From: Ferruginibacter lapsinanis
Lineage (GTDB): Bacteria > Bacteroidota > Bacteroidia > Chitinophagales > Chitinophagaceae
Direction of reading: 5' to 3'
Length of the DNA stretch: 64,000 nucleotides
Assembly: GCF_020783315.1 (NCBI RefSeq)
Contig: NZ_CP086063.1
Location: 558,001 to 622,000 of the forward strand
The first letter of the stretch is position 1. Each line of letters opens with the position of its first letter. A program made the translations under genes and the position numbers. Shown piece after piece: positions 1 to 5,000 of the stretch. The notes under the pieces are model-generated. The model did not search any database. It was not told where the DNA came from and worked only from the letters and a program-made list of their open reading frames with translations.

Positions 1-1300
1 ATCTATAAAATCTATCTAACTCATTTTTATTCCCACATCTAACTATTGTGATACCCTTGCTTATATAATCATACTCAATTTTATCAAAAAGAAAAGGTAA
101 AATTAGAGATTCGCTTTGTCCTTCAACAAGAATTATTTTTTTAGCGAAGAAAGCTTCGTTCGCTTTTTGTGTATCTCCAGTTTCTTCATAAGCATTCTTA
201 TAATGAAGTAATATATCTTCTTCTGAAGGTTGAAATCCCTTTCTTAAGTTCAAATCCTGCGCAAAATCTATGGGCTTTGAACACCTTATATACGTCCCTT
301 TATCAACACTTTTTCTTACAATAAATATTTCATTAAACCTTCCAACGTTTAAAAAATCTGGTGAATGAGTTGTAAAAAATATTTGAGTTCCACTCTCTGC
401 TAACTCAGATAAAACTTTATAAAAATTTCTTTGCGCTTGTGGATGTAAAAACAATTCAGGTTCATCAATAAAAATGGGAGTGCTATTTTTTAATTTTATT
501 TGAGAATATGCTTTTAAAATAGCTATCGAAATAGAAGCTTGAACTCCCATCCCTAAGTTCGAAGCTTGAAAAGAAAGATTTGTGTCATTCTCACAGATGA
601 TAAGCTGCAAAGTTCTAAAGAAATTCCATGGGTCATATAAATTCAAATCTATTTTTAATTCATCTTCAGGTTTATTGAGTTGCTTAGCTGTTTCTACCTG
701 TAATATTTTTATAAATTTTTTCATTACCTGCACACCATGCTGGTCTTCTACTGTGAACAATATATTGTCTCTTATTTTTTCTATTTCTGTTTTAAACAAA
801 TCTGTCTTTTTGGTTACTTCTCCTGAATCACCATCAATAATTTCTTCTTCTTTAAACATTTGGTTAATGTCCTGCAATATTCGACCCATTAAAGACCATC
901 TATTTGAAGGTGAATAATCTAATATAGACCTATCTACTCCTAAATAAGCGGAGCAATATTTTTGTCTTTCAATATCTGTTACATAATTTGAGGATAAGTT
1001 TAATCCTGACTTTTCGAACCTTTCATTATACATCCATTTTTCGGCCAACTGTAAATATTTACCGTCATCAAACATTAATGAAATTTTGATTTCATTAGAT
1101 TCCAGACCCATAAAATGGTCTTGAGGTTGAGTAGCATTAAATGAAGGATAGATTGGACCTAAACACCAATTTATTGCATTGAAAATATTGCTTTTCCCAA
1201 CGCTATTTTCTCCAATAAAAGCATTTATTTTATCCGAGCAATTCAAATCTATATGATGAATGCTTTTATAATTTCTTATAACAATTTGTTTGATTTTCAT
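1..1300 (-). CDS. OLD-family ATP-dependent nuclease (AAA ATPase + TOPRIM), 3' end outside window
   Basis: Reading the minus strand from the ATG at 1300 gives an uninterrupted 433-codon frame that runs off the left edge, so the C-terminus is missing. The N-terminus is of the SMC/RecF type, with Walker A GENSVGKSN near residues 33-41. A signature-like LGMGVQAS follows, then Walker B with D-loop IFIDEPELFLHPQAQR and an H-loop THSPDFL. Near residue 400 a TOPRIM start, KKIILVEGQSESLILP, is visible with its conserved Glu. This order (ABC-type ATPase then TOPRIM) defines OLD nucleases, which include P2 Old and Gabija GajA; such proteins cut DNA in anti-phage defence. Which subclass this is cannot be decided without the missing end and the downstream gene, which lies left of the window. 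The gene belongs to an island inserted in comM. Confidence 0.85.
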   Translation of the reverse strand, partial: MKIKQIVIRNYKSIHHIDLNCSDKINAFIGENSVGKSNIFNAINWCLGPIYPSFNATQPQDHFMGLESNEIKISLMFDDGKYLQLAEKWMYNERFEKSGLNLSSNYVTDIERQKYCSAYLGVDRSILDYSPSNRWSLMGRILQDINQMFKEEEIIDGDSGEVTKKTDLFKTEIEKIRDNILFTVEDQHGVQVMKKFIKILQVETAKQLNKPEDELKIDLNLYDPWNFFRTLQLIICENDTNLSFQASNLGMGVQASISIAILKAYSQIKLKNSTPIFIDEPELFLHPQAQRNFYKVLSELAESGTQIFFTTHSPDFLNVGRFNEIFIVRKSVDKGTYIRCSKPIDFAQDLNLRKGFQPSEEDILLHYKNAYEETGDTQKANEAFFAKKIILVEGQSESLILPFLFDKIEYDYISKGITIVRCGNKNELDRFYR

Positions 1301-1675
1301 GCTAGTTATTGATTATGGGTATAGCAATCTAAGGAAATAATACTACATGTTACTACTCATGACCTCATCATCTTTACCATTAGTTATAATTACCTTAGAC
1401 GGGTATGAGCTCTACCGTGAGTCTTATCGTCTTACTTACTCATGTGCACATCTCGTACTTGTTTTACCCCCTATCATCACCATTGCGATAAGCTTGCTTT
1501 AACAGCATTTATCCCTTATTATGCGTCTTCAAAAAGTCACATTTATTGAGCCCTCCAATTAATAAGTTTAACATCAGTAACTTTATCTACTCTAGGACTT
1601 CTGAAAAGCTAATTTCCTTTACAACAAAAAACATTTTAGGACCCTTTGAAGGTTAGCACTATTCAATGTAAGAAT
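1301..1675. other. 375-bp intergenic stretch between OLD nuclease and DprA-like gene
   Basis: No open frame of useful length and no clear tandem repeat is visible on either strand. It should contain the promoter of the minus-strand OLD gene and the 3' region of the DprA-like gene. No convincing TAnnTTTG element or terminator hairpin was identified by eye. Confidence 0.5.
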
Positions 1676-3034
1676 TTACAATGATTCGTTCGTGAATAGT
1701 TTGGGATTATTTGTAGACGAGCTTGAAGGTTTTTTCTTCTTAGTAGATTTTGTCTTTGTATCTTCTAATAATTCCTTGTATTCCTTTTCAAAAGATTTAA
1801 GAAGTTTTGTTAAGTCTTTATATTCTTGTTTGCAATCACTTAATTGTTTAGAAATAGTATCTAAAATTCCAGAAAGTTGTGACTCTCTATTTTTAATTTC
1901 AAAAATTGCAACTTTAAGTTCTTGTTTTTTGTCCGTCTTAATTAATTCTTTTTCTTCATGCCCTAAGTTCACTTCAATCTCAGTTGGTTCAGAAATAATA
2001 AGGTCTGGCTGCTGGTTGTTTACAGTCACCTCATTTTTTTCTACTATAGATTCGTTAGCTTTAACTAAGGTTGGATTCTTGAATATGTGGTCATTTAATA
2101 ATGTAGTTTCCAAATTCATTAATCTGTCCTCCATTAATTTATAGTCATCTTTTATATAAGGTATAGCTTGCTTGGTGTCTATTAAATGTCGTATACCCTG
2201 AATTTTACCAAAACTAAAACCTACAGAAATTTCGTATTGATTTCTAATTAAATCATTGTATACATTCGGAACAAAAATATATCGCTGTTGCTTGGTTGCG
2301 TACTTAACGGTATGCATAGTGCCCCCAACAATATCCGTTTCAATTGGGAATATTGCAAGAGATAGACCACTTTGTATTCTGTCACGTAATACAAAAGCGT
2401 TTTTTCCTTGAAAAGACCCTGGTCTATTCTCAGAAATTAGCAAGCCATCGTTCGATAATATCCTATTCGCTAATTCAGTATTTTCCTTAGGGTAAATTTT
2501 CGCCACATCAATTAAAACAGCAATAGTTTTCCCATTCGCATCTAGAGCAGCCTTATGACCAATGGCATCTATTCCTTTTGCCAATCCGCTTACTATAGTA
2601 TATTTATGTTCTGCAAAATACGATGCAGTATTACGAGCAATTCTACTTCCAACTTCCGAGCATTCACGAGTTCCTATTACCGCCACGTTCTTGGTGTTTT
2701 TCAGCAATTTAGTATTCCCTTTGCAAAATAGGAAAATAGGAAAATCGTCTATTAGTCTCAGTAAGGGAGGATAATCTTCACTATAATAATGTAGTACTTG
2801 TATTCCTTGTGTTTCAAAGCTCATTAAATTATCCTCGGCACTTTCTCTAGCATTTTCATATTGCTCAAGAAAACCCTCCAAAGATTTTTGATTATTAAAT
2901 ATTTGGCTTAAACTTGTATTGTCGATATTTTTTAATTCCCTTATTGAGAGATTACTCTTAATTATTCTACGCAAAGTTTGGTCTCCAATTCCAGCAATGG
3001 AACTTATAGCTAATAATTCAACTATTGAAATCAT
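1676..3034 (-). CDS. DprA/Smf-like (SLOG fold) protein with long C-terminal coiled-coil extension
   Basis: This 452-residue protein has an N-terminal helix-hairpin-like segment (SSIAGIGDQTLRRII) and then a Rossmann-type DprA core at about residues 100-300. Core motifs are VAVIGTRECSEVGSR, IVSGLAKGIDAIGHKAAL and FVLRDRIQSGLSLAIFP, matching the GS/TR, SGLARGID and RNRIxAGLS motifs of DprA. Chromosomal DprA loads RecA on incoming single-stranded DNA during transformation and is usually 280-380 aa. This one carries roughly 130 extra residues: a charged, probably coiled-coil region and a Lys/Ser-rich tail with the run KKKK. SLOG proteins in islands have been proposed to sense nucleotide-derived ligands. 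It starts 12 nt from the divergent HAD gene. Whether it is a competence protein or a defence sensor is open; the island context favours the latter. Confidence 0.85.
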   Translation of the reverse strand: MISIVELLAISSIAGIGDQTLRRIIKSNLSIRELKNIDNTSLSQIFNNQKSLEGFLEQYENARESAEDNLMSFETQGIQVLHYYSEDYPPLLRLIDDFPIFLFCKGNTKLLKNTKNVAVIGTRECSEVGSRIARNTASYFAEHKYTIVSGLAKGIDAIGHKAALDANGKTIAVLIDVAKIYPKENTELANRILSNDGLLISENRPGSFQGKNAFVLRDRIQSGLSLAIFPIETDIVGGTMHTVKYATKQQRYIFVPNVYNDLIRNQYEISVGFSFGKIQGIRHLIDTKQAIPYIKDDYKLMEDRLMNLETTLLNDHIFKNPTLVKANESIVEKNEVTVNNQQPDLIISEPTEIEVNLGHEEKELIKTDKKQELKVAIFEIKNRESQLSGILDTISKQLSDCKQEYKDLTKLLKSFEKEYKELLEDTKTKSTKKKKPSSSSTNNPKLFTNESL

Positions 3035-3046
3035 ATTTTTAAAATT

Positions 3047-3550
3047 ATGTATAAAGTTATCATTTTTGACTTAGACCAGACATTAATTGATTCCTCTGCC
3101 ATTGAAGCATTACGAGCAAATAGAAGATGGCCAAAAGTAATGCAAAGTTTAAATCTTATAAATCAACTAGAAGACTTAAAAAAACTTGTTATAAAATTAC
3201 ACAATGCAAGCATAAAAATAGGAATTGTCACCAATTCTCCAAGTACCTATGCTAAAGGGGTTTTACAACATTTTGGAATACCCTATGATGCATTAGTTGC
3301 TTTCCATGATGTTTCTTTAAGAAAACCCAATCCAGAAGCGTTTAATTTAATTATGAAAAAACTAAATGTTTCAAGCCAAGATTGTTTAAATGTAGGAGAC
3401 CATGACAATGACATTTTAGCTGGACAAAGAGCAAACATAACATCAATTGGAGTTAAGTGGCATTCAAACAATTATACTTTTTCAACAAAGCCAGAAAATA
3501 TTTTCCTTGAACCAAAAGAACTTGCAAACTTTTTAAATGTTAAAATATGA
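3047..3550 (+). CDS. HAD-superfamily phosphatase-like protein
   Basis: The 167-aa product opens with the HAD nucleophile motif IIFDLDQTLID (DxDxT/V). It continues with motif II in GIVTNSPS (Thr/Ser), a Lys in LRKPNPEAF, and motif IV GDHDNDILAG (GDxxxD). All catalytic positions of a phosphoglycolate-phosphatase-like HAD hydrolase are present, with a small helical cap. Its stop overlaps the next gene's start by four bases (ATGA), so it is translationally coupled to the phosphoribosyltransferase. Start-to-start spacing to the DprA-like gene on the other strand is 12 nt. The substrate is unknown; a phosphorylated sugar or nucleotide is plausible because of the partner. Confidence 0.85.
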   Translation: MYKVIIFDLDQTLIDSSAIEALRANRRWPKVMQSLNLINQLEDLKKLVIKLHNASIKIGIVTNSPSTYAKGVLQHFGIPYDALVAFHDVSLRKPNPEAFNLIMKKLNVSSQDCLNVGDHDNDILAGQRANITSIGVKWHSNNYTFSTKPENIFLEPKELANFLNVKI

Positions 3551-4107
3551 TTGTAGAAAAAGAACTCCATCCAATAAGTGGAACAAATATTATTACTTTT
3601 TTAAAATACTATCCTCAGAGATATATTGTAGAATTGCCTTATAGTCAAAATCGACAAACAATATATCAATTTAAAGATGGTATATACCAACCAGTATTAA
3701 AGTTGTTTACTGACTGTATCACTGGGTTAAAACAAGGCAATCCTGGCTTTGATTTCTGGGTAGGTGTTATACCTGCATCAAAGGTAAATGCCAACAAAAT
3801 AAGGTACGAAAGCCTATGTCAAAATATTTCCAATACATGTGGTGTTCACAATGGATATGAATTATTGAAACCGATAGGCGATAGAAATCAAGTTCATGTT
3901 GGAGGGCATAGAGATTATACCCAAGTGATACCTAGCATTAATTTTGGGGATGTAAAAGGAAAAGATATAATCCTACTCGATGATGTGATGACTATGGGAA
4001 AATCATTTACATTAATACATCAACATTTAAACCAATTAGGAGTTCGTTCTGTAATTGGTGTTATGCTAGGCAAAACACATTGGCCAGAGGAATCCGTTAT
4101 TTTTTAA
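3547..4107 (+). CDS. Phosphoribosyltransferase-fold protein (ComF-like)
   Basis: The 186-aa protein contains the PRPP-binding loop DIILLDDVMTMGKSF (hydrophobic strand, two Asp, then TMGKS) near residues 137-152, diagnostic of type I phosphoribosyltransferases and of ComF-type proteins. The N-terminal third, with FDFWVGVIPASK, fits the other half of such folds. No zinc-finger cysteines like those of canonical ComF are visible. It is coupled to the HAD gene by a 4-nt overlap and converges with the comM fragment, leaving only 17 nt between stop codons. It is the last gene of the island before the comM junction. Enzyme activity versus nucleotide sensing cannot be told from sequence. Confidence 0.8.
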   Translation: MIVEKELHPISGTNIITFLKYYPQRYIVELPYSQNRQTIYQFKDGIYQPVLKLFTDCITGLKQGNPGFDFWVGVIPASKVNANKIRYESLCQNISNTCGVHNGYELLKPIGDRNQVHVGGHRDYTQVIPSINFGDVKGKDIILLDDVMTMGKSFTLIHQHLNQLGVRSVIGVMLGKTHWPEESVIF

Positions 4108-4124
4108 TATTAATAATATAAATT

Positions 4125-5000
4125 TCATACCCCCGCATTAGATATAGCTACATCTGATATTGTATGATGTGGACTTCTGTAAGGACGTTTTGATATCAGT
4201 GTTGCATTCTCAGGAAGTTTTCCGGCAACAGAATGGATCTTTGTTGTTTCCAATGCTTCCTGTAAAGACAACGGTGGTAATATCGTTGGCAAACGCTTAG
4301 CCAACATCGTTTTACCTGCACCTGGCGGACCAATCAGAATAGCATTATGCCCACCAGCCGCTGCAATTTCCAAAGCCCTTTTAATATTTTCCTGACCTTT
4401 TACATCAGAAAAATCAATTTCGAAATCACTTTGAGCCTGTGCAAATTCTTCTCTCGTATTTACAATGATTGGCTCTAAAGAACTTTCATCTTCAAAAAAT
4501 CGAATCACCTCATTCAGATGCGTAACACCATAAACATGCAGATTATTTACCATAGCTGCTTCTCTTGCATTTTGCAAAGGCACAATCAGACCTTTAAAAT
4601 TTTCCTTCCCAGCTTGTATGGCAATGGGTAATGCTCCTTTGATAGATCTAACGGTTCCATCTAAACTCAATTCACCCATGATCACATATTCAGCTAATTT
4701 TTCCGGATTGTCTAATTGCTCACTAGCTCCTAATGTTCCAATAGCAATAGGCAGATCAAAAGCAGTACCGCTTTTTTTAATATCTGCCGGGGCAAGGTTG
4801 ACCACCAGTTTTGTACGTGGCATAAAAAAATGATTCGCTTTTATAGCACTTTCAACCCGCTGCATACTTTCTTTTACAGCGCTATCCGGCAAACCTACAA
4901 TTACCGCATCAGACTTTCCCTGGTTATTAATATTTACCTCTACGGCAATTGTAATTGCCTCTACGCCGTAAACAGCGCTGCCATATGTTTTTACCAACAT
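4125..5000 (-). pseudogene. comM: N-terminal fragment of comM/yifB (Mg-chelatase-like ATPase), interrupted by island
   Basis: The frame encodes the ComM N-terminal Lon-substrate-like domain (MLVKTYGSAVYGVEAITI at the start, then LVVNLAPADIKKSGTAFDLP) and Walker A IGPPGAGKTMLAKR near residue 223. It breaks off after RPYRSPHHTISDVA and is followed by only ISNAGV and a stop at residue 291. Family members are about 500 residues long and continue with VGGG and the Walker B region at this point. The missing C-terminal half would lie left of the window beyond the island. ComM is a DNA helicase promoting branch migration in natural transformation. The fragment lacks Walker B, so it is probably non-functional. 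Sequence identity stops at about 4140-4151. Confidence 0.85.
4140..4151. other. Probable island/comM junction
   Basis: ComM family homology ends at the codons for Val-Ala (4146-4151); the next codons are foreign. On the minus strand the junction reads TGTAGCTATATC. It begins with TGT, as the ends of Tn7-like elements do, but the first two codons also match normal comM, so the exact base is uncertain. No terminal inverted repeat can be confirmed without the other end. Confidence 0.5.

Follow-up and report, generated by a model that had tools for sequence, protein, structure and literature searches.

An island encoding a large serine recombinase and predicted defence genes splits comM in Ferruginibacter lapsinanis

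Introduction

The gene comM, whose product helps other bacteria to incorporate DNA that they have taken up, is broken in the genome of Ferruginibacter lapsinanis (G000; complete, one contig, 3,455,339 bp). The break lies in the stretch of DNA analysed here, hereafter referred to as the window, which has 64,000 nucleotides (G000:C1:558001-622000). A sequence-only reading of the window had proposed that comM is interrupted at the RSPHHTISDVA position by a defence-like island, and had suggested a Tn7-like element as the vehicle. We extended the locus leftwards (L003, G000:C1:546001-564000) and found the second half of comM beyond a 10,543-bp element, which upholds the island. The vehicle is different: the element encodes a large serine recombinase (LSR), and comparison of the sequences makes it very likely that this enzyme inserted the element at the SDV codons of comM by joining the attP of the element to an attB in the gene.

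Results and Discussion

The split comM locus

From the distal half of comM onwards, the element comprises the LSR, a helix-turn-helix (HTH) protein of HUH type, a 69-codon open reading frame, a small resolvase, a methyltransferase with a HindVP endonuclease, an Old nuclease, a ShosA-like protein, a HAD-family hydrolase, a phosphoribosyltransferase (PRTase) and an att arm, after which the N-terminal fragment of comM follows. The ten element proteins scanned were searched with Pfam and PADLOC, smaller open reading frames being left out.

Table 1 Features of the comM locus. A window coordinate is the L003 coordinate minus 12000.
Feature	Position	Strand	Basis or remark
comM N-terminal fragment, 291 codons	window 4125..5000	minus	native to the core, then element sequence until the stop
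Shared crossover core GATGT	window 4150..4154; second copy L003:5607-5611 (outside window)	minus	junction sequences, joined flanks
Element-side att arm TATATCTAATGCGGGGGTA	window 4128..4146	minus	mirror arm at opposite element end, outside window
PRTase, 186 amino acids, ShosT-like toxin candidate	window 3547..4107	plus	PADLOC ShosT 3.2e-11, residues 120-180 only
HAD-family hydrolase, 167 amino acids, possibly on the ShosTA-like toxin side	window 3047..3550	plus	Pfam HAD_2 5.9e-25; weak PADLOC ShosT 3.9e-4
ShosA-like antitoxin gene, DprA family, 452 amino acids	window 1676..3034 (L003:13676-15034)	minus	Pfam and PADLOC
Old-type AAA ATPase/TOPRIM nuclease, 551 amino acids	window 2..1300; whole L003:11645-13300 (3' end outside window)	minus	Pfam and PADLOC
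C5 methyltransferase and HindVP endonuclease, adjacent	L003:9538-11568	minus	RE_HindVP 6.6e-150, DNA_methylase 5e-66
Small serine resolvase	L003:8827-9423	minus	element anatomy
69-codon open reading frame	L003:8142-8351	plus	element anatomy
HTH and HUH-type protein	L003:7597-8103	plus	element protein scan
LSR	L003:5646-7364	minus	adjoins distal comM half; Pfam
comM C-terminal half	G000:C1:550913-551599	minus	intact open frame without stops

The N-terminal fragment of comM resembles its family through RSPHHTISDVA and departs from it right after DVA, as had been noticed from the window, where ISNAGV and a stop follow. The crossover points of the two halves are separated by the full 10,543 bp. 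When the flanks are joined in silico, they give an open comM of 515 codons, 88% identical to the ComM of an intact relative. The motifs which we take to be Walker A and Walker B are placed on separate fragments; both fragments are for this reason predicted to be inactive, so that no functional ComM is expected as long as the island remains in place.

In relatives the gene is not equally short. A comM match was found in 31 of 35 same-genus genomes (none in G010, G015, G017 and G020), and none of the 31 is split at the codon in question. The frame is open over at least 514 codons in 28 of them. Two others, G001 and G014, end at contig edges with open frames of 476 and 437 codons that run past the site, their unsplit status resting on frame length, while in G006 the frame is broken elsewhere and the site is spanned.

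Element ends and the recombinase

The same 5-bp sequence, GATGT, is found at both junctions with inverted arms around it, and GA within it is inferred to be the crossover dinucleotide. The ends of the element form a symmetric predicted attP centred on this GA, in which 18 of 23 mirrored positions pair, a value equalled by none of 2000 shuffles. The attB region in comM (RSPHHTISDVALVGGG) is strongly conserved among the relatives whose sequences were compared. The element has a GC content of 0.326, and its flanks have 0.355 and 0.365. An identical short core at both junctions, inverted attP arms and an uninterrupted site in relatives are the features of an LSR element.

The enzyme has the corresponding domains. 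In the LSR next to the far comM half, Pfam recognises, in order and all above cut-off, Resolvase (1.5e-18), Recombinase (6.3e-15) and Zn_ribbon_recom (1.3e-15), that is, the catalytic, recombinase and zinc-ribbon domains of the class. The catalytic Ser10 and four zinc-ribbon cysteines are invariant in 22 of 22 aligned LSR sequences, this one included. On the proposed mechanism, the LSR would recombine the element attP with attB inside comM at the GATGT core, and excision would restore comM exactly.

Related recombinases at the same codons

The 22 aligned LSRs were used as a query and returned 40 loci, 20 of which belong to Bacteroidota. A comM half broken at the present point accompanies the related LSR in 16 of these 20 (16 of 40 overall), namely in L005-L008, L010-L012, L014-L020, L023 and L024. 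There, comM homology starts at residues 278-282 or stops at residues 281-289, except in L012, where the alignment extends to residue 305, yet the DNA has the same core. The LSR lies less than 1 kb from the comM half in 15 of the 16, and two genes (4 kb) stand between them in L012. The core reads GATGT in 10 of the 16 and AATGT in three; L005, L006 and L016 deviate. In a survey of the class, this LSR type was present in 10 of 395 genomes (G000 included), with a broken comM alongside in six of the other nine and none in the 20 kb around the LSR in the remaining three. Because the two sets overlap, their counts were not summed.

Two of the scanned loci have an arrangement of their own. In L008, the LSR and, after it, the C-terminal half of ComM share a single open frame of 801 codons (L008:7472-9877) and could be made as a fusion. 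In L013, a related LSR (L013:9313-11939) seemingly lies inside a gene other than comM, presumably fasciclin-like by our own reading of the sequence, which is likely to be a change of target.

Defence cargo

The predicted cargo consists of a HindVP-type restriction-modification system, an Old nuclease and a ShosTA-like set, which would shield the host from phages. The first is assigned to type II by an endonuclease gene of the HindVP family that adjoins a C5 methyltransferase gene. Positions 1-4151 of the window had been read as holding OLD nuclease, DprA-like, HAD and PRTase genes, and all four are there, the Old gene being cut by the window edge. The Old protein matches AAA_15 (1.6e-35) and OLD-like_TOPRIM (2.9e-21) in Pfam and Old in PADLOC (5.9e-52).

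The DprA-like protein could be placed more closely. It belongs to the DprA family (Pfam DNA_processg_A, 1.1e-55), in agreement with the earlier claim of a DprA paralogue, but it is really a relative of ShosA-type antitoxins (PADLOC ShosA, 3.3e-69), and it scores 161.2 bits against the NCBIfam dprA equivalog, below the cut-off of 191.15. Elsewhere, the host genome encodes a second member of the DprA family (377 codons), besides a ComEC-family gene (709 codons); because of this separate DprA-family gene, the island protein does not look like a housekeeping one. The HAD and PRTase genes together occupy L003:15047-16107 on the plus strand, divergent from the ShosA-like gene, and the PRTase also has a match to Pfam Pribosyltran that is below cut-off (1.9e-4). 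A ShosA-type DprA protein near a ShosT-type PRTase, here both inside a stretch of 2.4 kb, is the gene arrangement of ShosTA, and relatives of the HAD, ShosA-like and PRTase genes stand together in L015. The pairing of a DprA-like protein with a PRTase is shared with the ShosTA and DprA-PRTase systems (PMC9122126). Compared with those systems as outlined there, the predicted set of the island adds a HAD gene beside the PRTase, both divergent from the ShosA-like gene.

For the cargo of other elements at the present site, 20 hand-picked proteins from seven of them were scanned, without a control set and with no claim of enrichment. A match in the defence library at 1e-5 was obtained in six of the seven: a type IIG enzyme in L006, reverse transcriptase UG39 with a primase in L008, AbiH in L011, a GmrSD/NsnA type in L012, ShosTA with RmrA in L015, and in L024 a UvrD-type helicase whose match to GajB models is generic. 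The single protein scanned for L019 had no such match.

The HTH-HUH protein and a candidate module

The HUH histidines of the HTH-HUH protein, a predicted nuclease, are invariant in 53 alignment rows. Its structure was predicted with a pLDDT of 90.8, and the best matches to this fold in the PDB and in a viral library are mostly CRESS Rep domains. The protein would nick the circular form of the element for replication or mobilisation. If the latter, the island could be an integrative mobilisable element, in which the HTH-HUH protein acts as a relaxase and a borrowed conjugation machine moves the island. We regard this as a real possibility, although on the less probable side. The invariant histidines fit it, and a homologue in G496 weakly matches Pfam Relaxase (E 1.7e-4; 22.3 bits, with the cut-off at 24.6). 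Against it, the fold is matched best by replication initiators, none of the scanned element proteins is a coupling or transfer protein (an origin of transfer was not searched for), and the HUH family has no match in plasmids. This reading is compatible with integration by the LSR and concerns only the movement of the circle.

A second, small serine recombinase accompanies the LSR in L010, L011, L012 and L024, with 47-58% identity to that of the island. In G496:C4 (L135:6846-11994), an HUH gene, a small open reading frame and a resolvase occur with a tyrosine integrase beside tRNA-Arg (CCT). We tentatively suggest, as something that is rather doubtful still, a Bacteroidota family of integrative defence islands of rolling-circle type which are built on an exchangeable module and dock either in comM, by an LSR, or beside tRNA-Arg, by a tyrosine integrase, so that the vehicle does or does not reversibly switch off host transformation. 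The module proposed is an HTH-HUH nuclease with an open reading frame of about 68 codons, a small serine recombinase that faces them and an integrase beside. If it holds up, the occurrence of one kind of vehicle both in comM and next to tRNA-Arg would provide a natural control, and cargo, persistence and transformation could be compared between the two.

Other vehicles in comM

In other genomes of the phylum, comM is occupied at almost the same position by a prophage in one case and by a Tn7-like element in another. Together with the related LSR loci, they bear out the earlier suggestion that the island is part of a broader pattern of elements targeting this gene.

The first is a 40-kb insert in G407, with an LSR and a tape-measure protein, which is taken as a prophage. 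Over its first 70 residues, the LSR of this insert (L099:1050-2744) is identical to one encoded on an IMG/VR viral contig (L130:7983-9677). These two facts, and the seven viral loci (22-36% identical) that the LSR scan returned, would suit the idea that the island derives from a phage satellite, or from a prophage in decay, and that its defence genes came with it. We consider this improbable, since the ten scanned proteins include no capsid, tail, terminase or packaging gene, none of the seven viral loci has a comM half, and ten proteins scanned from other present-site elements gave no phage structural gene by Pfam. Nor has the HUH family a confirmed locus in viral contigs; nothing is ruled out by a family being missing from the VIA list.

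The second, in G322 of the same class, is a 45-kb Tn7-like element (L097:1352; L098:11752-16316; G322:C1) with TnsA (PF08722), TniB (PF05621) and TniQ (PF06527); where TnsB would be expected, it encodes a large HTH protein. Read by eye, its junctions have TGT...ACA as the ends, and a TGGAG repeat lies within the VGGG codons, 17 bases beyond where the LSR core starts; an automated repeat search returned only an unrelated weak pair. A neighbour of TniQ with 548 amino acids was suspected to be TnsF. It has no Pfam match and its homologues are hypothetical or unnamed, save one partial 'ApeA N-terminal' label, and for these reasons it is more likely to be cargo; no TnsF was recognised in this element.

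That the island of G000 is itself a Tn7-like (AbaR/Tn6022-type) transposon was rejected as highly improbable: the same gene is targeted, as in G322, and the element is bordered by a 5-bp repeat of the kind that Tn7 transposition leaves, but no TnsA, TnsB, TnsC, TniB or TniQ occurs among the ten scanned proteins (tns genes elsewhere in the genome were not searched for) although the same Pfam library detects TnsA, TniB and TniQ in the G322 element, the element starts with AGC and finishes with ACT on the comM strand and not with TGT...ACA, an LSR lies beside the distal comM half, the arms mirror around the 5-bp core, and relatives with the same comM break carry LSRs.

comM across the phylum

In an evenly drawn sample of 392 genomes of the phylum, 381 have a comM match (G000 included). 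We searched again in 33 genomes picked by eye for weak or multiple matches among those listed, and in three from the comM search that had covered the same-genus genomes, so that the counts are lower bounds. The gene is split at residues ~217-222 in at least three genomes (G134, G284 and G375), at ~283-288, the present site, in at least four besides G000 (G156, on two contigs, G281, G322 and G407), and at ~351-359 in at least five or six (G183, G429, G229, G104, on two contigs, G177 and possibly G417). For G177, the N-terminal side of comM alone was found, with an LSR adjacent, and the contig of G417 simply terminates at that codon. This amounts to at least 12 or 13 of the 380 genomes besides G000 in which comM was matched; the rest of those flagged resembled frameshifts, ends of contigs or divergent families and were left out of the count.

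In a tree of 33 serine recombinases, the three enzymes of the first site form one fully supported group (the Pfam check covered L093 only), and so do the six of the third site, from five of the genomes listed for it and from G058. The 20 present-site enzymes are clustered, with five label changes needed and four non-comM enzymes among them. The deep order of the tree is unsure because long branches were flagged. As judged from these sequences, three LSR groups use three sites within comM.

Relation to known elements

LSRs that target Mg-chelatase or ATP-dependent protease genes make up 12.4% of predicted site-specific integrases, and competence genes are enriched among LSR targets (Durrant et al. 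2022, PMC10083194). The same study found that target genes are not enriched within or near anti-phage genes, a result that concerns targets and not cargo. Those elements and the island have in common LSR-driven insertion into the same gene family; three comM sites, an HUH backbone and defence cargo are not mentioned in the parts of that paper used here, and the word 'Bacteroid' was not found in a search of its main text.

Tn6022/AbaR-type Tn7-like transposons with TnsF, and Tsy, insert into comM; TnsF binds a region overlapping Walker B, and disruption of comM could limit transformation (Faure et al. 2023, PMC10293859). Tn6022 and Tsy use a transposase with TniQ-TnsF or a tyrosine recombinase with TnsF, whereas the present island has an LSR and short inverted arms and lies upstream of Walker B. 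In Acinetobacter baumannii, comM is disrupted by elements, some of which carry CBASS or Zorya, and its interruption is commoner in non-transformable strains (PMC11472951). Transformation was measured in that work, which deals with another host group, other recombinases and other cargo.

Thus, LSRs that hit Mg-chelatase genes (PMC10083194) and comM as the target of Tn6022 and Tsy (PMC10293859) were already known. New here are the solution of the present case, the use of three sites in a single gene by LSRs, the occurrence in this phylum of a prophage and of a Tn7-like element at almost the same point, and the candidate module; none of the titles and abstracts searched describes such a module, or a Bacteroidota comM that is occupied by a Tn7-like element.

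Elements as different as those of three LSR groups, a prophage and a Tn7-like transposon have entered comM in this phylum, mostly at three short conserved stretches. This raises the question whether comM is merely an unusually conserved landing sequence, or whether disabling it protects the element from replacement by transformation. In the mechanism preferred here, what the island would exploit in comM is a conserved sequence at which to dock. A drop in host transformation, which would make the island harder to cure, would be a side effect or an extra advantage. That the element profits from blocking transformation is offered as a hypothesis. Being small and intact and having a predicted attP/attB pair, the island is also a candidate integration tool for Bacteroidota.

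Other arrangements of comM occur in the phylum. In G037 (L089, G037:C3) and G051 (G051:C99:3-494, with L090), a full comM is found with a displaced extra tail that corresponds to its last ~160 codons, an arrangement considered as a possible mark of elements that restore the gene. In G058 (L087, L088; G058:C18), one N-terminal comM half occurs with two tails, which suggests elements stacked at residue ~354.

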